DNA of 21,361 bases, from the IMG/VR virus record IMGVR_UViG_3300025120_000671, positions 1-21,361 of that record; one strand, 5' to 3'. The notes below the pieces were generated by a model that worked only from the letters and a program-made list of their open reading frames with translations, searched no databases and was not told the DNA's origin. Positions within the stretch are counted from its first letter, which is position 1. Every line of letters begins with the position of its first letter. Made by a program: the position numbers and the translations under genes. Origin of the DNA: a virus. This document shows, piece after piece, positions 2,676-21,361 of the stretch.

Positions 2676-5600
2676 TTATGTTAAAAATAATTCTCTTTCT
2701 TGTTCTCGTCTTTTTGTCAATCCAGCTAATACGTTTCCACCTGCTTTATTCCATCTTAAGAACTCATCAGCTGCTCCATCATAATCACTTTGATTAAGTT
2801 TTTTTACTAAAGTTGAGCTGTTGAAATTTCCTGCTCCTACATTATAAATAAATGAAACTAGAGCATCAAATTCATTTTGAGTTAAATCAACTTTGATTTT
2901 GTTATAAATAAATCCTTGAACATTATCTCGTACATGCATCATTAACAATTCTGTAGCTTTTGCTTCAGTAATAGGTTGTTCATCATATATAAGATCATCC
3001 CATTCATAAGGATCATTAAAGCTCATTTCAGTTGTTCCATATCCTATTGTAAGTACACCTACACTATCATAATAAGAATTTGCTCTAAAAGCTTCACTTC
3101 TTTTTATTTCATCTATTCCCGCAGCACTAACAGTTAATAGTGTTGGGTCAACACGTGGTCCTCTTTCACCTTCTGCTACATCTTCTAGTTGTTTTTGTTT
3201 ATCATTTTCAGTTTCTTCTACCTCAACAGATGTAGGAGTTTTTATTGATATTCTAGGAACTGATAAAGTATCTATTGTGGTTGTCCAAGCTTGAGTAGTA
3301 ATACTATGATTAATTCCTTTAACTATTATATCAATACTATCTTTTTCATATGAAGGGGGAAGAATATCATCAGTTATTCTGAATTTTTGAAATAATCTCA
3401 TTCCTGCAAGACCATCCATTTCTAAATTTAAATTAAAAGGAAGGAAAAATGGGGCTGGTATTTTTTGATTTTCTGCTGCTTTTCCCTGTATTAATTTAAT
3501 ATAACTTGTATAATTTTCTAAAAAACTATCTAATGTATCAGCAGTAAAATCAAAACAAGATCTTCCTCCTCCTTGTACTTTTCCTTTAAATCTATATATA
3601 GCTGAAAATGGGGAGGTTTTATTTTTGTCAAGTTCATCTTTATAATATAATTTTTGTTTAAAGATTTTTAATGCATTTTTTCCAGGAGTGGAATTTTTAT
3701 CTTCTTTTTTAGTCCAATCATTTTTTTCGGGTAAAATCCTATCAACTAAGCCTTTATTATAATTTGAAAATGATGTAGCATTTCCTTGAAGATTATTTCC
3801 TGATACTTGAGATCCTATTGATACTTGGGCAGCAAAGTTACTAGGTATTTGGGCATCTAGTCCTATATTAGTAATAAATGATCCTGTAACATTTTGTTGG
3901 GAAAATATATTAGCTGCAACCTCTTCACTAGGTTCTAAACCTCGTTTTACCCCAAAAATATTAAAAGTAGTAAATTCATCATTATTAGACTCATCTAATC
4001 CTGGTTTTGGGGATTCATCATAAATTTTAATTACACCATCTATCTCATCATAAGTAACAGTAAAATTATTAATACTACCTAAAGATTCATTTATTCCTTG
4101 TAATATAGTTTTTACATATGTTAAAACAGATATAGCACCATCTTCATCTTTATTAGAATTTGCTAAAGTATCTGCTGCAAAAGATAAGTTAACCATTACA
4201 TTACCTAATCTTCCAATAAAAGGATTATTATTTACTAAAAAATTAGTATTTGTTAGTAATTTATTTAAATTTCCATCAGTAGGTAAGTCAAAACTTTTAT
4301 AATCTACAACACCTTCAATAGATGCTTTAGTAAAAGGTACAATACATTTATTAGGATTTGCAGAAAGATTAGGAGGCATAATTAACATGTAATTATCATC
4401 AAATTCATTAGAATAAGCAAAATCAAATTCTATCATTTTTTCTCCATCTTCTAAAAATAAATTACAATTTTTTTCAATCATCTGTAATAAAACTGAAAAT
4501 TTTATGTAAATACTTTTATATCTTTTACCATCTCCACTTGTATCAACATCACCTTTAAAAGTTTTAGTAATACACATTGCACCTTGTGGTACCCCATAAT
4601 AGAATTTTTTTACTTCAGATTTATCTATATCTGCAAAAGTTTGATATGCTGAATAAAAATCTTTGTTTAATTTTGTTTTAGTTTTGTTAGCTAAAATAGG
4701 ATCATTATTATCACTTGACGCCTGAATGTCTGCTTGGTTTTGGGCCGCTTCAACTAAAGCATCATATCTTGTTTTAGTCCAAGCTTTTATATCTTCTTTT
4801 TTTGCATTTCCGCCAAATTTTCCATTGCTCCTTCTATATAATTCTTTTGATTGTAAATTACCAAAGGTTTTAGCAGATGTAGAATAATTAGGATTTTGAA
4901 AATATTCATCATTAACAGTATTCCATAAATTTTTACCCCATTGTTTAAATCCAAATTGATCGTAAGTTAATTCATATTCAACTAGTTCTTTTTGTGTATT
5001 TGATTGATTATTATTATTAGGATCAATTATGTTTAATTTTAGAGATTCAAGAATATCTCCCATCCCTACCATATCTACAGAAACATCATAAGACCCATCC
5101 TTGCTAAAACTCCACTTAAAATTAGTTATTTTTCCATAAACAGCTTCATAATTTCCTTGGTATAATTGTCTTTCTTCTTTTATTCTTTCATACATTCCCC
5201 TTTTACCTGAGGGTTTAGGAAATATACTAGGATTTAAGAGGAATTGTAAAGGTGTAGAAGTATAAGTTTGGAAAGCTTGAAAACCCGTAGGTGTTAAATA
5301 CCCAGACCACCCAAATTCTAATAAAAGAGTATATCCAGGTCTTAAATACAAAACATCTAATAAAGAAAATTGGGCTTTACTATAACATTTTATGTTAACA
5401 GTTGCTTTACTTAAAGCACCATTATTATAATAAGTTGTTTGAGCTGAAGTAATACCGGGCATAGGAACATAACCTCTTTCTTTAATACCTCCCCACCCAT
5501 AAGCTCCATTAAAAATATTTCCATCAGTTAACCCTGAATTTAAACCTTTAAATGATGATATTGTATCTCCTAATTCTTCTTCATCCTGTAATGATGTGGC

Positions 5601-5870
5601 GCCTCCAAAAAGTACAAAGTTTTTTGCTAAATTATCATTAATTATATCATTTTTACTAAAACCATAATTTATTAATCTATTATAAACATCATCTCTATCT
5701 ACTACCCCCTTAACATCAACAGAACTTGCTAATCTTAACCAAGGAGTTTTAGTAGAATAATATTTTAAACTATCAGCGCCAATGTTAGAATATTGTCCTA
5801 ATGCTGTTTGTCTTATATCTACTTGATTTTTTACAAAACTTTCAAATGGACTACCTATAATGTTACCCAT
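2676..5870 (-). CDS. Baseplate hub protein with C-terminal GH24 lysozyme
   Basis: 1064-residue tail-tip protein. The C-terminal domain (about 912-1064) is a phage lysozyme of glycoside hydrolase family 24, which cuts peptidoglycan between MurNAc and GlcNAc. The T4 lysozyme triad is visible: E926 (KRSEAF), D935 and T941 (YYDSVGVLTIGYG), with the D-to-T spacing of six seen in T4 lysozyme. The N-terminal part (about 1-330) has hub-like segments such as LYLRPGYTLLLEFGWSGY at 174-191, which I relate tentatively to gp27-type hubs. The middle is long, Asn/Lys-rich and unassigned. In T4 the lysozyme sits inside gp5; here it ends one large protein, so hub and lysozyme may be one chain. It lies four bases after the LysM gene. 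The lysozyme call is firm; the hub assignment rests on context. Confidence 0.85.
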   Translation of the reverse strand: MGNIIGSPFESFVKNQVDIRQTALGQYSNIGADSLKYYSTKTPWLRLASSVDVKGVVDRDDVYNRLINYGFSKNDIINDNLAKNFVLFGGATSLQDEEELGDTISSFKGLNSGLTDGNIFNGAYGWGGIKERGYVPMPGITSAQTTYYNNGALSKATVNIKCYSKAQFSLLDVLYLRPGYTLLLEFGWSGYLTPTGFQAFQTYTSTPLQFLLNPSIFPKPSGKRGMYERIKEERQLYQGNYEAVYGKITNFKWSFSKDGSYDVSVDMVGMGDILESLKLNIIDPNNNNQSNTQKELVEYELTYDQFGFKQWGKNLWNTVNDEYFQNPNYSTSAKTFGNLQSKELYRRSNGKFGGNAKKEDIKAWTKTRYDALVEAAQNQADIQASSDNNDPILANKTKTKLNKDFYSAYQTFADIDKSEVKKFYYGVPQGAMCITKTFKGDVDTSGDGKRYKSIYIKFSVLLQMIEKNCNLFLEDGEKMIEFDFAYSNEFDDNYMLIMPPNLSANPNKCIVPFTKASIEGVVDYKSFDLPTDGNLNKLLTNTNFLVNNNPFIGRLGNVMVNLSFAADTLANSNKDEDGAISVLTYVKTILQGINESLGSINNFTVTYDEIDGVIKIYDESPKPGLDESNNDEFTTFNIFGVKRGLEPSEEVAANIFSQQNVTGSFITNIGLDAQIPSNFAAQVSIGSQVSGNNLQGNATSFSNYNKGLVDRILPEKNDWTKKEDKNSTPGKNALKIFKQKLYYKDELDKNKTSPFSAIYRFKGKVQGGGRSCFDFTADTLDSFLENYTSYIKLIQGKAAENQKIPAPFFLPFNLNLEMDGLAGMRLFQKFRITDDILPPSYEKDSIDIIVKGINHSITTQAWTTTIDTLSVPRISIKTPTSVEVEETENDKQKQLEDVAEGERGPRVDPTLLTVSAAGIDEIKRSEAFRANSYYDSVGVLTIGYGTTEMSFNDPYEWDDLIYDEQPITEAKATELLMMHVRDNVQGFIYNKIKVDLTQNEFDALVSFIYNVGAGNFNSSTLVKKLNQSDYDGAADEFLRWNKAGGNVLAGLTKRREQERELFLT

Positions 5871-8464: not shown

Positions 8465-8475
8465 ATTATAAATAT
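8465..8475 (-). promoter_or_regulatory. Candidate late promoter before the baseplate run
   Basis: The coding strand reads ATATTTATAAT, an exact copy of the repeated element, with TATAAT ending 31 bases before the ATG at 8433. Its first base is the last base of the tape measure stop codon, so it lies right at the gene boundary. It would drive the 101-residue protein and the baseplate genes after it. Confidence 0.55.
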
Positions 8476-10736
8476 TACCCCATATTAGAAGTTACAAGTG
8501 CTAATGATTTGCCTACTTTATTTCCATCCATATAAACATCACCACCTTCTTTAACTGCTATTATTAACTCTTTTAATAATGCTGTAACTTCTCTATTATT
8601 ACCTCCTCCTAAACTAGTTCCCCCAACTATAACATCATCTTTTCTGAATTTTTGAATTGGTTGACCTGGTCTTGAAATAAAATCTGCTGCTTCATCATCT
8701 TTCATCTTTTGAGAAAATTCTGTATCAGCTCTTCCACCGAATAAAGTAAGTAAAGGAGAGGCAGCAAAACTATCTATAAAAGATGCAAATCTATCTAATG
8801 CTCCTCCTTCTACAAAAGAAGCAAATAAATCTTTTGCTCTAGATAATTGTTCATTGAATTTTTCTGTTGCTGATTGTTCTGATTTTCTTAAATAAATTTG
8901 ATCACCAAGAATTTCTCTTAATTCCGCTTCTGTTTTGTTTGCTGCTTGAGCAGCTATTCTAATTTCTTGTAATGAAGCTTTTTCTAAATCAAAGTTTTTA
9001 TCATCAATACTTAATCCTGCATCTTTTAGTTCATTTATTTTTTTTAAATTTGCTTTCGCTAATGCATCATTTTTAGCTTTTTTATCAAACATGTCAGCTA
9101 ATGCATTAACTTCTAACCCAACAGCTTTAGCTAATGCTTGTCTTTGAACAATATTCATTGATAAAAATTCTTCCTGGGTTCCTGCTTGTGCTGAAATTTC
9201 TTCCATCAACTTACCAGTTTGACCCATTAAAGCATATTCTCTTGCTTTTTCTAGATTTAACTGTTTACCTGTAAGTAATTCAGCTTCCATTTCACTTTCT
9301 ATAGAAGATTGGAAATCTAACATACTACTAGATATTCCTTCCATTTGGTTTAATTCAAAACCTAATCTTTTTGCATTAAATATACCATCCGCAATTGCAA
9401 ATGAACTGCCTCTGAAATTAGCTCTTAAATTTCCTGATACTTTTGTTGCTTCTTCTAAATTACCTATTACATCAGCTGTTAATCCTTCTTGTGAACTTAA
9501 AAGTCCTGCTTGACCAAAATATTCTTTAGTCATTTCTTTAAGAGGTTTACCAGTTTTAACTGACTCTAAAAATAATCTTGCGGAAGCATCAGCACTTAAA
9601 CCAAACTTTTCTGACATCATTGTAGCTTCTGCTACATTTGCTCTCATTTCTCCTCCAAAATCTCCTAATATATTTACTTGAAAACCTAATTTTTTATTAA
9701 TAGCATCCATGGTTTTTAATAACCCTTCTTGAGTTATTGCAACACCACCTGCTGCTTTTGAGGCTGCATTAAATTGTTTAACTGTGTCAAAAGTAGCATC
9801 TCTAAGTTCATTAGCTGCTTCTCTACCAATTAATAAATCATTTGAAAATTTAGCTGTTTGTTTTGATGCTGCAGTCATTGCCCCAACTACAAATTGAATA
9901 GCTTTTGCAATGGTTGTTAAAATTGCTAAAGGAGCAATAGCTTTTGAAATTATTCCTTTTAATCCCTTAAATCCTGCTTTCATTCCAGCTATACCTGAAG
10001 ATTGGGTTTTTGCTTGTTCTTTAGCACTTTTTAATAGATTACGTGCTGCAGCACCTGATTTTCCTTGGGTTATATCTTCTAAATTAAGAGATTTTAATCT
10101 TTCTCTTGTAAGTCCTTTACCTGTTTTTAATTCATCTTCAGTTAATTTGCTTAATCTTTCTTTTATATCTGAAGCTTTAGCATTACTTATTACAGTTTCT
10201 CTTGAAGCTTTAGCTGCTGCTTCAAAAGGTCCTGAAAGTACTCTTAAACCTGGTATGTCTTTTGTAAAATCAGAAAAAGCAGTAAACCACATTGTTTTTT
10301 TATCTAATGTAGATGATGATTGTGCTATTTTTCCAAATTCACCTGCTAAATCTTGAGCACTATCTCTTACAGATGATAATCGTTGAGCTTGAGCTTGAAA
10401 TAATTTTGATTGTGTTTCATTAGCTGTTAAGGATTTTTTATTTAACTCATTAATTTGAATATTAAGAGTTCTTACTATGGCTAATTGTTTAGCTTCACCT
10501 TTAATGGCCTCTGCTGTTGCTTTTGCTGATTTTGCTGCTTCATCTTGTAAATCAGCAAATCCTTGAGTTGCTGATACAATTTTAGTAATTTCACTACTAA
10601 CGGCTCCAGCACTTATTCCTAAATCTTTAAATTGTTTATTAGCTGCTGCTATTTCAGATTTTACATCTTTAACCGCAGCCCTAATATCAAGTACTCTTTT
10701 TAAGTCATCTTTTCCTAAACCTTCAAGTCCAGCCAT
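8475..10736 (-). CDS. Tail tape measure protein
   Basis: 753 residues, Ala/Lys/Glu-rich and mostly helical. Residues 10-145 look like long coiled coil, a hydrophobic stretch lies at about 258-290 (KGIISKAIAPLAILTTIAKA onward), and further helical repeats run to about 640. This is the usual make-up of a tape measure protein, which fills the tail tube, sets its length and is ejected before the DNA. By the rule of about 1.5 Å of tail per residue it predicts a tail near 110 nm, comparable to T4. It follows the chaperone/frameshift pair directly, the conserved place for this gene, and has its own candidate promoter 11 bases before the ATG. The C-terminal 100 residues (from about 650) are Gly/Asp-rich and may form the tip contact. 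Confidence 0.85.
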   Translation of the reverse strand: MAGLEGLGKDDLKRVLDIRAAVKDVKSEIAAANKQFKDLGISAGAVSSEITKIVSATQGFADLQDEAAKSAKATAEAIKGEAKQLAIVRTLNIQINELNKKSLTANETQSKLFQAQAQRLSSVRDSAQDLAGEFGKIAQSSSTLDKKTMWFTAFSDFTKDIPGLRVLSGPFEAAAKASRETVISNAKASDIKERLSKLTEDELKTGKGLTRERLKSLNLEDITQGKSGAAARNLLKSAKEQAKTQSSGIAGMKAGFKGLKGIISKAIAPLAILTTIAKAIQFVVGAMTAASKQTAKFSNDLLIGREAANELRDATFDTVKQFNAASKAAGGVAITQEGLLKTMDAINKKLGFQVNILGDFGGEMRANVAEATMMSEKFGLSADASARLFLESVKTGKPLKEMTKEYFGQAGLLSSQEGLTADVIGNLEEATKVSGNLRANFRGSSFAIADGIFNAKRLGFELNQMEGISSSMLDFQSSIESEMEAELLTGKQLNLEKAREYALMGQTGKLMEEISAQAGTQEEFLSMNIVQRQALAKAVGLEVNALADMFDKKAKNDALAKANLKKINELKDAGLSIDDKNFDLEKASLQEIRIAAQAANKTEAELREILGDQIYLRKSEQSATEKFNEQLSRAKDLFASFVEGGALDRFASFIDSFAASPLLTLFGGRADTEFSQKMKDDEAADFISRPGQPIQKFRKDDVIVGGTSLGGGNNREVTALLKELIIAVKEGGDVYMDGNKVGKSLALVTSNMG

Positions 10737-10767: not shown

Positions 10768-11061
10768 TTATTTCTTCAATTTTTTAGCTACATAACTTGG
10801 TGGAGATACTGTTCGTTTAGTTGGAAGTTTAGACTTGTCAGGATTAGCCATATCAATTTCACCTGCATTTTTGGGGTTTTGGGATTTTTCTTTAGCATCA
10901 AAAAATTCTTTCATTTTATTAAAAGTTAATCTACGCAACCAAAGAGGCATATTATACACAGTATGAAAGTCATAACCACCACCACCATGGAAAACTATTT
11001 CGTGTATTTCATGAAATATTTTTACCCGATACTTAGGAAAATCATTTAAAGATCGGGCCAG
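10768..11061 (-). CDS. -1 frame extension of the gp26-like chaperone (gp51-like tail)
   Basis: Reached by a -1 frameshift at the TTC codon 11063-11061; the fusion would be 238 + 97 = 335 residues. The -1 frame is open from a TGA just upstream of the slippery site to the TAA at 10770-10768. It has no ATG, GTG or TTG until GTG-TAT-AAT-ATG at 10968-10957, yet protein-like sequence begins much earlier: NDFPKYRVKIF, HEIHEIVFHGGGGYDFHTVYN, then MPLWLRRLTFNKMKEFFD. A start at 10959 alone would give a 63-residue stub and leave that region untranslated. From memory, the HGGGGYD...VYNMPLWLRR segment resembles small proteins that follow gp26 in other T4-like phages. Position just before the tape measure matches the frameshifted tail assembly chaperones of lambda (G/GT) and P2 (E/E'). 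The C-terminus is basic and ends in KKLKK. A separate internal start at 10959 remains possible. Confidence 0.8.
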   Translation of the reverse strand: MARSLNDFPKYRVKIFHEIHEIVFHGGGGYDFHTVYNMPLWLRRLTFNKMKEFFDAKEKSQNPKNAGEIDMANPDKSKLPTKRTVSPPSYVAKKLKK

Positions 11062-11070
11062 AAAAAATTT
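11025..11070 (-). other. Programmed -1 ribosomal frameshift signal
   Basis: The coding strand reads ATA AAT TTT TTC TGG near the end of the gp26-like gene. Two overlapping X-XXY-YYZ heptamers are present: A AAT TTT (11070-11064) and T TTT TTC (11067-11061). Six bases after the first and three after the second is a hairpin: CCCGAT (11057-11052) plus CTT (11051-11049) pairs with AAG (11034-11032) plus ATCGGG (11030-11025), nine pairs with one bulged T and a 14-base loop. The zero-frame stop TAA lies in the loop. A weak pseudoknot (loop ATTTT with a downstream AAAAT) is possible. Slippery site, spacer and hairpin in this order match known bacterial and phage signals. Confidence 0.78.
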
Positions 11071-11774
11071 ATGGTAATAGGAATTGAAATTTCAGTTCCA
11101 TCATCAGTTATATAATTTAAATCAACGTCAGGAGCTGTATCTCTAATATGATTTCTTAGTGCTCTAGAATCACGAGCTAAAAGAAAAGTATCAACATATT
11201 TACGAATTTCAGATTTATTATTATCCCCATTAACTGAAATAATTTGATGTTTTAATTTTGTAGTAATTTCAGGAGCTGCACCCTTACTTATTTTAGAAAT
11301 TCCTAATACTTCTTGAGTAATATTATCAACATCTTTTTCAGTTAAATGTTTATATTCTACTACAGTTCCATTTGAAGGCATTTCAAAAGTACCATAACCT
11401 TCATCTGATAGAGTTTTAACATCAAATGGTTTATTTTTAACTTTTGTTAAATCAATTGTATATTCTTTTCCAGCATATTCAAATTTATATTCTGAACCAT
11501 ATCCTAATATTCTAGCAGATATAAAAATTGCATTTTTATCCCCAGGATAAATATCTTTAACATCAAATTTATTCATAGTAAGAGCTTCTATTAATCTATC
11601 TAAAACAGTTCCTTTTTCTATGTAATTTTGGTTAGTTAAAATATCTTCTTCTTTAGCAGTCATATACTTCATTTCTACCCTTCCAGATGATAATGGGTGA
11701 TCTTTAGGATAAATTTTACCTTCTGATGGTAAATCAACAAATTCCGTAGGGAATTGAAATTCTTTTTCGCTCAT
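11046..11774 (-). CDS. gp26-like baseplate hub assembly / tail assembly chaperone
   Basis: 242 residues. The N-terminus has the pattern I associate with T4 gp26-related (T4_baseplate) proteins: FVDLPSEGKIYPKDHPLSSG, then VEMKYMTAKEEDILTNQNYI (33-52) and GDKNAIFISARILGYG (78-93). The protein ends INFFWPDL. It lies between tail tube and tape measure, where other myophages encode the tail assembly chaperone, and its 3' end carries a -1 frameshift signal, so I infer that it is the short chaperone form and the 335-residue fusion the long form. Such proteins bind the tape measure and tube subunits during assembly and are absent from the finished virion. It has its own candidate promoter and follows a terminator. 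The gp26 relation is from pattern memory and should be tested by profile search. Confidence 0.78.
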   Translation of the reverse strand: MSEKEFQFPTEFVDLPSEGKIYPKDHPLSSGRVEMKYMTAKEEDILTNQNYIEKGTVLDRLIEALTMNKFDVKDIYPGDKNAIFISARILGYGSEYKFEYAGKEYTIDLTKVKNKPFDVKTLSDEGYGTFEMPSNGTVVEYKHLTEKDVDNITQEVLGISKISKGAAPEITTKLKHQIISVNGDNNKSEIRKYVDTFLLARDSRALRNHIRDTAPDVDLNYITDDGTEISIPITINFFWPDL

Positions 11775-11874: not shown

Positions 11875-12363
11875 TTAGAAATTTAATACACAATAATCCA
11901 TTCCTAATGTTAATGAAATATTCATTACAGTAGTATCATCATCCCAATTCATGTCTCCAAATGAAGCATCTTTAATAAATGCACCTTTAATTATCCACTC
12001 AGAAACTACATCACCTACAGGACCTAACACATCAATTGTTAAGTCTTTTTTATAGAAATCAGAATAACCATCTCTACCTGTTACTGATTCATGATGTAAT
12101 CTTGTCCACTCCATTACTGCTTGAGCTCCTGAAGGTGTGATTGGATCGAATAATTCCATTGTTAAATCATTCCATCTTAATTTACCTTTTACTTTTCTAT
12201 AGGTGTTTATATGATTTAATACTATTTCGTCTTGCGCGAACCCCATTCCACTAACTCCTTTAATTATATACGATGGTATACCATCAACATACAATACAAA
12301 TCTATTAGCTACTTTTGGTTCAAAAGCTGTGAAAAATATTTCGTTAGGATCTAATACTGCCAT
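11875..12363 (-). CDS. gp19: Tail tube protein (T4 gp19-like)
   Basis: 162 residues, almost the length of T4 gp19 (163). It begins MAVLDPNEIFFTAFEPKVANRF and shows the tube-protein pattern: a β-strand FVLYVDGIPSYIIKGVSGM (22-40), a long loop, then KLRWNDLTMELFDP and a C-terminal strand pair around MNISLTLGMDYCVLNF. Many copies stack into the inner tube that channels DNA and is pushed through the envelope on sheath contraction. The gene follows the sheath gene by 46 bases, has a candidate promoter 20 bases before the ATG within a leader almost identical to the sheath leader, and is followed by a terminator. Both suggest high, separately controlled expression. Confidence 0.9.
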   Translation of the reverse strand: MAVLDPNEIFFTAFEPKVANRFVLYVDGIPSYIIKGVSGMGFAQDEIVLNHINTYRKVKGKLRWNDLTMELFDPITPSGAQAVMEWTRLHHESVTGRDGYSDFYKKDLTIDVLGPVGDVVSEWIIKGAFIKDASFGDMNWDDDTTVMNISLTLGMDYCVLNF

Positions 12364-18149: not shown

Positions 18150-18707
18150 TTAATCAACAACCATTTTAATACAATAATAATCTTTTTTAGTAAAATATTT
18201 GTATTTCATTTCTTTAATAGGAGGATTTACATTAACATGAGTAAAAGTAATTTTTCCATTATTTATTTTAGAAGTGTGTTCTGATACTTCTTTTGTAAAA
18301 GGATTATAATAAGTTATTATTCCTTTAGGTTTTAAGTATTTTTTTACTGTAGGTACTAGATTATAAAAATTTTTATCTTCCCACGTATCATGCATTATAC
18401 CATCATATTTTTTATTAGGAATACTACTAAACCAATCACCTTTTATAGGAATAATATTAGGTTTATCTTTAGCCCATTTTAATAATCTATCAAATACTTG
18501 ATCATTAATTTCAATTATAGTATGAGATTTTATATTATGTTGTTGTATAAAATTTGAACATATACCCATTCCAAATCCTATTTCTAATATATCACCACCA
18601 TTTTCAGTTACAACTTTAGCATGCTCTTTCATAATAGGAGTTTCCCACTCCATCATTATTTCTTTTTTATTTTCATCTAAAATTTTATCTTTTAAAAAGG
18701 TATACAT
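18150..18707 (-). CDS. SAM-dependent methyltransferase, GAMT/RMT2-like
   Basis: 185-residue class I methyltransferase. The sequence follows guanidinoacetate N-methyltransferase (GAMT) and its relative, the protein arginine δ-N-methyltransferase RMT2: MMEWETPIMKEHA (18-30), motif I LEIGFGMG (41-48), HTIIEINDQVFDRL with the SAM-ribose acid E66, PIKGDW (87-92), YDGIMHDTWED (101-111) and LKPKGIITYYN. The two acids that contact the guanidino group in rat GAMT (E45 of WETP and D134 of YDT, from memory) match E22 and D107. A guanidino-type substrate such as arginine or an arginine side chain is therefore plausible, but unproven. It is shorter than GAMT (236) at the C-terminus. Its ATG directly abuts the stop of the 584-residue virion gene, suggesting co-translation. 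No signal peptide. Confidence 0.85.
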   Translation of the reverse strand: MYTFLKDKILDENKKEIMMEWETPIMKEHAKVVTENGGDILEIGFGMGICSNFIQQHNIKSHTIIEINDQVFDRLLKWAKDKPNIIPIKGDWFSSIPNKKYDGIMHDTWEDKNFYNLVPTVKKYLKPKGIITYYNPFTKEVSEHTSKINNGKITFTHVNVNPPIKEMKYKYFTKKDYYCIKMVVD

Positions 18708-20468: not shown

Positions 20469-21361
20469 TTATTTTTTCTTTAATTCATCAACTTCAGCTT
20501 TTAATTCTTTAACAGCTTCAATTAATACAGCTACTAATTTATCGTATTTAACCGCTTTATAACCATTAGCTCTTGTTTCTACTAAATCTGGGAATACAGC
20601 TTCTATTTCTTGGGCTATAACACCTACATCTGATCCTTCATTAGCATGTATTGATTTATCTTTATTAGCTTCAAATTCTAACCAATCAAAAGTTACACCA
20701 TTTAATAAACTTACTTTATCTAAAGCATTAGGTATAGGTAATATATTAGTTTTTAATCTTCTATCTGATGAGTAAAATGCTATTACATCATTAGTTGCTC
20801 TAATTAATCCTGTTGTTGTAACACCTGTAGTACCTACTCCTAATCCTGCTGTAGTAATTTCTACTGAATTTTCAGCTACTTTTAACTGACCATTACCTCC
20901 AAAACCTATAATTGCAGTATAAAAATCTTCTGAGGAATTATTCAAAGTAAAAATATCACCACCAGCATCAGCATCTATTTCATAATTACCAAAAGCTAAT
21001 ATATTACTTGTATTATTATATGTAAAATTAGCTTGGGCATTTAAAACTCCTGCACTAGCATCACCAGTAATTACTCTATTAGCAGCATTATTATTTATAG
21101 TTGCTGTTCCTGTTGTACCTTGTCTACCTTGAGTACCCTGGTTACCTGTTGTACCTGTTGTACCAATTGTACCTTGTGCCCCTGTTGTACCAATAGTACC
21201 TTGTCTACCTTGAGTACCTTGATTACCTGTTGTTCCTGTTGTACCTATAGTACCTTGTCTTCCTTGAGTACCTTGATTACCTGTTGTACCTGTTGTACCA
21301 ATTGTACCTTGTGCCCCTGTTGTACCAATAGTACCTTGTCTACCTTGAGTACCTTGATTAC
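20469..21361 (-). CDS. Collagen-like fibre with C-terminal S74 self-cleaving chaperone (5' partial)
   Basis: The frame is open to the right edge, so the N-terminus is missing; 296 residues are visible. A TTG at 20945 is only an internal codon. The first visible part is Gly-X-Y repeats (see the repeat entry), then an Asn/Ala-rich linker ([18 protein letters not shown]), β-rich sequence around [19 protein letters not shown], and the S74 intramolecular chaperone: [10 protein letters not shown] with the Ser-Lys dyad (Ser at 20768-20766, Lys five residues later), [35 protein letters not shown] and a coiled-coil end. S74 domains help trimeric fibres fold and then cut themselves off at the Ser-Asp site. 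The collagen stretch suggests a trimeric stalk. Likely a tail fibre or other host-contact fibre. It ends six bases before the next gene. Confidence 0.88.
21102..21361 (-). repeat. Collagen-like tandem repeat within the fibre gene
   Basis: Coding repeat of Gly-X-Y triplets with a higher order. A core block ([15 protein letters not shown]) is followed either by an extra AQG TIG TTG and a closing TTG (27 residues, 81 bases) or only by the closing TTG (18 residues, 54 bases). From right to left the visible blocks are 27, 18 and 27 residues, then a shortened last block. Few codons are used (mostly GGT, ACA, CAA, ACT). The array continues past the window edge. Confidence 0.9.

Follow-up and report, generated by a model that had tools for sequence, protein, structure and literature searches.

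In tail assembly chaperones of the lambda kind a small share of ribosomes slips by −1 as the first ORF ends, and −1, −2 and +1 shifts are known across phages (PMC5009743); lambda itself makes a short form (gpG) and a frameshifted long form (gpGT) from a locus flanked by the genes for tail tube and tape measure. The same 2016 review calls the G–T frameshift widely conserved 'except T4'. T4 has gp26 (short) and gp51 (long), two genes on opposite strands, and a 2010 review of T4 tail assembly gives gp51 as essential with its function unknown (PMC3004832). Vladimirov et al. 2022 (Virology 566:9), as cited in PMC10885494 and PMC12846349, identified gp26 and gp51 as tail assembly chaperones; the citing passages also credit that work with T4-like phages that carry one short and one longer fused gene (PMC10885494) and with polyT −1 signals in T4-like TAC-N genes (PMC12846349). 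In phage Adele (Vandenendeviridae/Andersonviridae) a conserved polyT −1 site (GTTTTT) precedes the start-less −1 extension of the TAC locus, and earlier annotations of these families gave that extension as an ORF of its own or an intergenic one; the passages of that paper on these loci report no direction switch (PMC12846349).

We analysed a viral DNA window of 21,361 nucleotides (IMG/VR record IMGVR_UViG_3300025120_000671, positions 1 to 21,361), in which an original prediction had proposed a −1 programmed frameshift joining a gp26-like protein to a gp51-like tail. The same prediction took this to be not established for T4 gp26/gp51, but the chaperone identity of the T4 proteins had already been published by Vladimirov et al., and, going by the texts that cite that work, frameshifting T4-type chaperones are an already known kind. 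The window protein shares with gp26/gp51 its PHROG 150 membership and an architecture in which the short form equals the first part and the long form adds a C-terminal part. It differs in that T4 uses two separate genes with no frameshift between them; its extension has diverged from gp51, giving no direct match, and relatives of the window use the +1 frame. As with lambda gpG/gpGT, a locus placed after the tail tube gene and before the tape measure gene would yield a short and a frameshifted long form, but we found no sequence similarity to the lambda proteins, the slippery site is a different one, and the window has a hairpin with the stop codon in its loop. The Adele locus, with its polyT −1 site and start-less extension, is similar in layout and belongs to other phage families.

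The chaperone position in the window

Sheath and tail tube genes lie upstream of the candidate chaperone gene, the tail tube protein (11875..12363, minus strand) matching the PHROG 4542 tail tube family (E 9.9e-23) and Pfam gp19 at E 1.9e-5, under the Pfam cut-off. Downstream, and adjoining it, is the gene for a 753-aa tape measure protein (8475..10736, minus strand), recognized because the tape measure annotated in Flavobacterium phage immuto aligns with it over 386 aa at 27% identity (E 9e-27); this gene order is common to the window and immuto. Two overlapping ORFs (10768–11774) separate the tail tube gene from the tape measure gene, which is the usual place of the tail assembly chaperone in long-tailed phages.

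The nearest named relatives of the window are Flavobacterium phages. The 20 bases 5′ of its ORFs (417–20462) are AT-rich and mostly without an obvious Shine–Dalgarno sequence, as in Bacteroidota phages. Several other minus-strand genes are worth recording. A 419-aa protein in the tail cluster (417–1676) has a weak family A DNA polymerase match (PHROG 17, E 3.6e-7; Pfam E 0.003, below the cut-off); it is too short for a full polymerase, and no solved relative was found by sequence. A 1064-aa protein (2676–5870) has a C-terminal phage lysozyme domain (residues 923–1058, E 1.9e-40) and is probably a baseplate hub with a tail lysozyme at its C-terminus. A 185-aa methyltransferase-like protein (18150–18707; Pfam below the cut-off) sits among structural genes, and a Peptidase_S74 (endosialidase chaperone) domain protein (20469–20945), listed with a TTG start, adjoins a 584-aa protein without a family match.

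A slippery site, a hairpin and a start-less −1 frame

The zero-frame ORF (11046..11774, minus strand) encodes the gp26-like TAC-N, the 'G' part, of 242 aa, assigned by PHROG 150, its predicted fold and BFVD matches. It ends ATA AAT TTT TTC TGG CCC GAT CTT TAA, with the stop codon at 11048..11046. The slip site within this end, AAATTTTTTC (A_AAT_TTT_TTC, 11070..11061, minus strand), contains two overlapping X_XXY_YYZ heptamers, A_AAT_TTT and T_TTT_TTC, and a slip at either gives an identical 335-aa product. A putatively stimulatory 3′ hairpin is predicted at 11058..11024 (minus strand), made of 7 bp, a 1-nt bulge and 3 bp, with a minimum free energy of −11.2 kcal/mol (z −2.5, 39-nt stretch) and the zero-frame TAA in its loop. 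It begins 2 nt past T_TTT_TTC or 5 nt past A_AAT_TTT; when the closing G–U pair is ignored these spacers become 3 and 6 nt, matching the three to six bases predicted originally. The spacer of 2–3 nt for T_TTT_TTC is below the usual length; A_AAT_TTT gives 5–6 nt.

The open −1 frame spans 107 codons, from 43 nt 5′ of the zero-frame stop to 10771. Its portion after the site, the 'T' part (10768..11061, minus strand), comprises 97 codons from the CTG at 11061 to 10771, followed by a stop at 10770–10768, and is delimited by dN/dS and profile match as well as by its reading frame. TAC-NC would thus be TAC-N minus its last four residues plus a 97-residue extension. The earliest candidate starts in this frame are a GTG at +89 and an ATG at +98 nt past the stop position, leaving about 30 codons with none, and the most conserved segment of the extension, IHEIVFHGxGGY, precedes them all. 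The slippery site, bulged hairpin, stop in the loop, start-less frame, coordinates and product sizes of 242 and 335 aa thus all stand as first described.

These starts bear on whether the extension is instead a separate small gene, expressed from the internal GTG or ATG or by re-initiation past the stop. Arrangements of that kind have precedents: the counterpart ORF in the phiW-14-like Cygsa01 has its own TAATG start, P-SSM2-like cyanophages have an ATG at +5 and databases list a separate gp51 gene for them, and the immuto annotation contains only a 36-aa ORF from an internal ATG. In the window, translation from the first available start would cut off the best conserved segment, while the ATG just past the TAA is in the zero frame, meets a stop after 7 codons and is missing in several near relatives; the invariant slippery site, moreover, would serve no purpose. 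We regard a separate gene as extremely unlikely here.

Conservation and selection across the site

In-frame X_XXY_YYZ heptamers number 83 in the 6,452 codons of the window ORFs, unremarkable for an AT-rich genome. A long −1 frame opens at one of the 83, the AAATTTTTTC site, with 100 codons against 43 for the next best, and none of 9,734 alternative-frame sense positions in these ORFs is open for at least 90 codons. Chance does not explain the combination of slip site and long −1 frame.

The site is identical, letter for letter, in all 13 near-relative IMG/VR contigs that span it (a fourteenth, L015, ends before the site and is left out of the count), and each continues into the same −1 extension (73–94% amino-acid identity). 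Downstream of the zero-frame stop the median dN/dS is 0.19 in the −1 frame, compared with 1.7 and 2.2 in the other two; this check, proposed with the original prediction, shows selection on the −1 region as protein. Over the codons for N, F, F, P, D and L, no synonymous differences occur in the window clade where 37.5 are expected, which is weak evidence in a low-diversity clade with other windows of the gene equally conserved. Conservation of the hairpin, a further proposed check, came out in part: the arms GCCCGAT/ATCGGGT are unchanged in the 10 aligned rows of the window clade while the loop varies, but no covariation was found within that clade. A broken frame can also stem from misassembly or gene decay, and the window is, after all, a metagenomic fragment of an uncultured virus; with 13 related contigs, drawn from many metagenomes, sharing the site and with both of its flanks under purifying selection, such an artefact is next to impossible.

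Protein family and predicted fold

The 242-aa product matches PHROG 150, 'baseplate hub' (E 3.5e-8, residues 6–153), a profile that also matches T4 gp26 (positions 14–235) and T4 gp51 (13–280). PF12322 is not listed for the window protein in the Pfam search and is present in its relatives LR756508 and SP-15. Compared directly by profile, the window-type extension and the T4 gp51 C-terminus give no significant match (probability 0.2%). We keep the link between the two as a chain only: the fused forms of the window family match RM378/SP-15/GXN1 (E 1.8e-29, 269 columns including the extension), these match the cyanophage/Aeh1-type proteins (E 5e-13), and the latter match T4-type gp51 (E 2e-15); the fused window form also reaches the cyanophage/Aeh1 type directly (E 3e-6). 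Of the proposed pairing, the gp26-like first part therefore holds by its PHROG 150 match, but the gp51-like tail is connected through intermediates alone.

Structures were predicted for the unshifted first part and for a natural gp51-type protein. The 242-aa model is a confident one (pLDDT 89). Its BFVD matches include T4-like proteins of hub assembly as well as the baseplate hub subunit of SP-15 (E 1e-15), and Aeromonas phage 25 gp26 is a weak hit (E 1.6e-3). Foldseek alone returned no significant match for this model in the PDB. The best two of 856 re-aligned PDB chains are Bacillus subtilis YqbN (3klu, Z 5.0) and the HK97 tail assembly chaperone (2ob9, Z 4.7), a Z of about 5 being weak alone and below the tool's safe level; the same re-alignment of the gp51-type model gave no chaperone among its matches. 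The predicted fold of the first part thus weakly favours tail assembly chaperones as its best match.

A model for the two products

Position, conserved site, hairpin, a start-less −1 frame under purifying selection, family homology and a weak fold match together support the original reading of a frameshifting chaperone. We put at roughly 0.9 the probability that −1 programmed ribosomal frameshifting at this locus makes two chaperone forms, TAC-N (242 aa) and TAC-NC (335 aa). Most ribosomes would terminate at the TAA (11048..11046), giving TAC-N, and a minority, aided by the 3′ hairpin, would move back one base on A_AAT_TTT_TTC and continue in the −1 frame to give TAC-NC. If the roles follow those of lambda gpG and gpGT, TAC-N would coat the product of the adjacent tape measure gene downstream, and the part added in TAC-NC would bring in subunits of the tail tube. 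The sequence itself shows the site, the hairpin, the open frame with no start, its conservation and purifying selection, and the order of the genes; from these we infer that slippage occurs, at what rate, and that the products act as chaperones.

Slip sites in the wider T4-like family

The gp26 gene terminates in NNT TTT TTC, with a −1 extension after it, at 80 P-SSM2-like cyanophage loci and three Aeh1-like ones; T_TTT_TTC is present in 83 of 83. Where about 1,130 synonymous changes would be expected in the cyanophage TTT TTC, there are none, and the preceding codon always ends in T, though its amino acid varies. Given the ATG at +5, a separate start of the extension is possible in the cyanophages. 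Among the Aeh1-like loci, L142 is without a start before +50, and the others offer no start except a GTG at +8 or a TTG at −1. The cyanophage/Aeh1 extension matches the T4-type gp51 C-terminus (96.8%, E 2.5e-10). In contrast to the upstream regions of the window's ORFs, the cyanophage and Aeh1-like sites have a GAGGG-like sequence 5′ of the slip site.

Relatives with the extension in the +1 frame

The original prediction held that relatives without the slippery heptamer would count against it. Most relatives do lack a −1 extension; they have instead a +1 extension behind a conserved +1-type site, start-less before its conserved part. More distant IMG/VR relatives (45–59% identity) and immuto carry the homologous extension (..FFGLTPEYR..IHEIVFHGNGGYDWHTIYNMPIWLRKFTF..) in the +1 frame, and nearly all +1 relatives are without a start codon between the slip site and the conserved part of the extension. 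The slip codons of the 92 distinct genes of this type are TTT TTT TGG in 85, TTT CTT TGG in four, TTT TTT TTC in two and TTT TTT TAC in one. Farther relatives have TTT CTA (LR756508), TTT CAC (SP-15), TTT CGT (GXN1 and L238) and TTT TTT TGG (RM378). P-site tRNA re-pairing, of Phe from UUU to UUU/UUC or of Leu from CUU to UUU, fits all of these sites. A −2 slip suits poly-T but not TTT CGT (GXN1) or TTT CTA (LR756508), and because of this misfit +1 is preferred.

Known +1 sites include that of RF2, where CUU re-pairs to UUU, and UUU CGU in influenza PA-X. The +1 relatives resemble the former through TTT CTT TGG and the latter through TTT CGT; the genes are different, and the relatives have no stop codon in the A site.

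The N, F, F, P, D stretch has 0 synonymous changes against about 229 expected in the 19 distinct +1 genes first collected, and it is the lowest window of the +1 gene, at 0.06 of expectation, the next unrelated window standing at 0.64. As P and D fall in a dual-coding stretch, only part of this constraint is due to the slip; conservation of CCT GAC 3′ of the site may reflect dual coding, and the evidence for slippage lies mainly in TTT TTT and the preceding base.

The T-run raises a further alternative to ribosomal slippage, namely that RNA polymerase slips on it and leaves some mRNAs with an inserted or deleted U. Possible substrates are the T6 run of the window, the T7 run of most +1 relatives and the T8 run of L161, a relative with a −1 extension, but runs of 6–7 are short for transcriptional slippage. 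The run is, moreover, interrupted in four distinct +1 relatives (TTT CTT TGG) and replaced by TTT CTA, TTT CGT or TTT CAC in more distant ones, and slippage by ribosomes would make sense of the selection acting on the preceding base and of the hairpins in the −1 genes, both described below. Transcriptional slippage is, on this evidence, highly unlikely.

Immuto (L048, 3498–4461) has the site AGC TTT CTT TGG with its extension in +1; its public record lists only the last 36 aa of the extension, as a hypothetical protein, and misses the frameshift. In Pseudomonas phage Cygsa01 (L059, 2072–2982) and in LR756511 (L055) the extension ORF starts with its own ATG over the stop (TAATG), which suggests coupled re-initiation as a third route to the second product.

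A probable switch of frameshift direction

A first tree placed the two −1 groups apart; a second, of 105 first-part proteins, located the switch. Here the window's −1 clade groups with L161 at a support of 84%, a value from a quick tree method. Both fall, together with the +1 genes L159, L160 and L162, in a 14-row group with full support, and this group is in turn nested among +1 genes. L161 combines features of the two types: its site is +1-like (GGT TTT TTT TGG), yet its extension is in the −1 frame. Its hairpin, GGATCTCT AAA AGAGATCC, pairs perfectly over 8 bp and holds the stop in the loop; it lies at the same place as the window's but has another sequence. The hairpin z-scores of the −1 genes are −2.4 (L161) and −2.5 (window), and none was found at this place in the +1 sisters L159, L160 and L162 (z 0.2, 1.5 and −0.2).

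The base preceding the T-run also divides the two types. It is T in 11 of 11 −1 genes. In the +1 genes it is C or G in 86 of 92, against just 17% C or G at other third codon positions; the rows in these counts are related and are not independent events. This pattern points to selection for or against the T_TTT_TTY heptamer.

The frameshift direction in this one orthologous chaperone gene of uncultured T4-related phages has, we believe, probably switched from +1 to −1. TTT TTT TGG would be the standard +1 site of this large group of phages, with a poly-T stretch that permits both directions. A T, rather than C or G, before the run together with a new 3′ hairpin would set the direction to −1, and small downstream indels would bring the extension back into register. 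L161 would represent an intermediate, with the TTT TTT TGG of its +1 relatives, a T before it, a hairpin of its own and a −1 extension.

Implications

In the literature searched, we found no report of a +1 site or a direction switch within this gene family, and the search on the Flavobacterium phage group returned nothing on frameshift direction. The locus adds to the known frameshifting chaperones a large, mostly uncultured T4-related group with a conserved, unannotated frameshift. Gene callers shorten or overlook such proteins, as with the 36 aa annotated in immuto. What is new is the homologous extension in the +1 frame in 92 relatives, with a −1 clade nested among them and an intermediate. 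The nested +1 and −1 clades form a natural experiment on what governs direction: the base before the T-run, the A-site codon and the hairpin.
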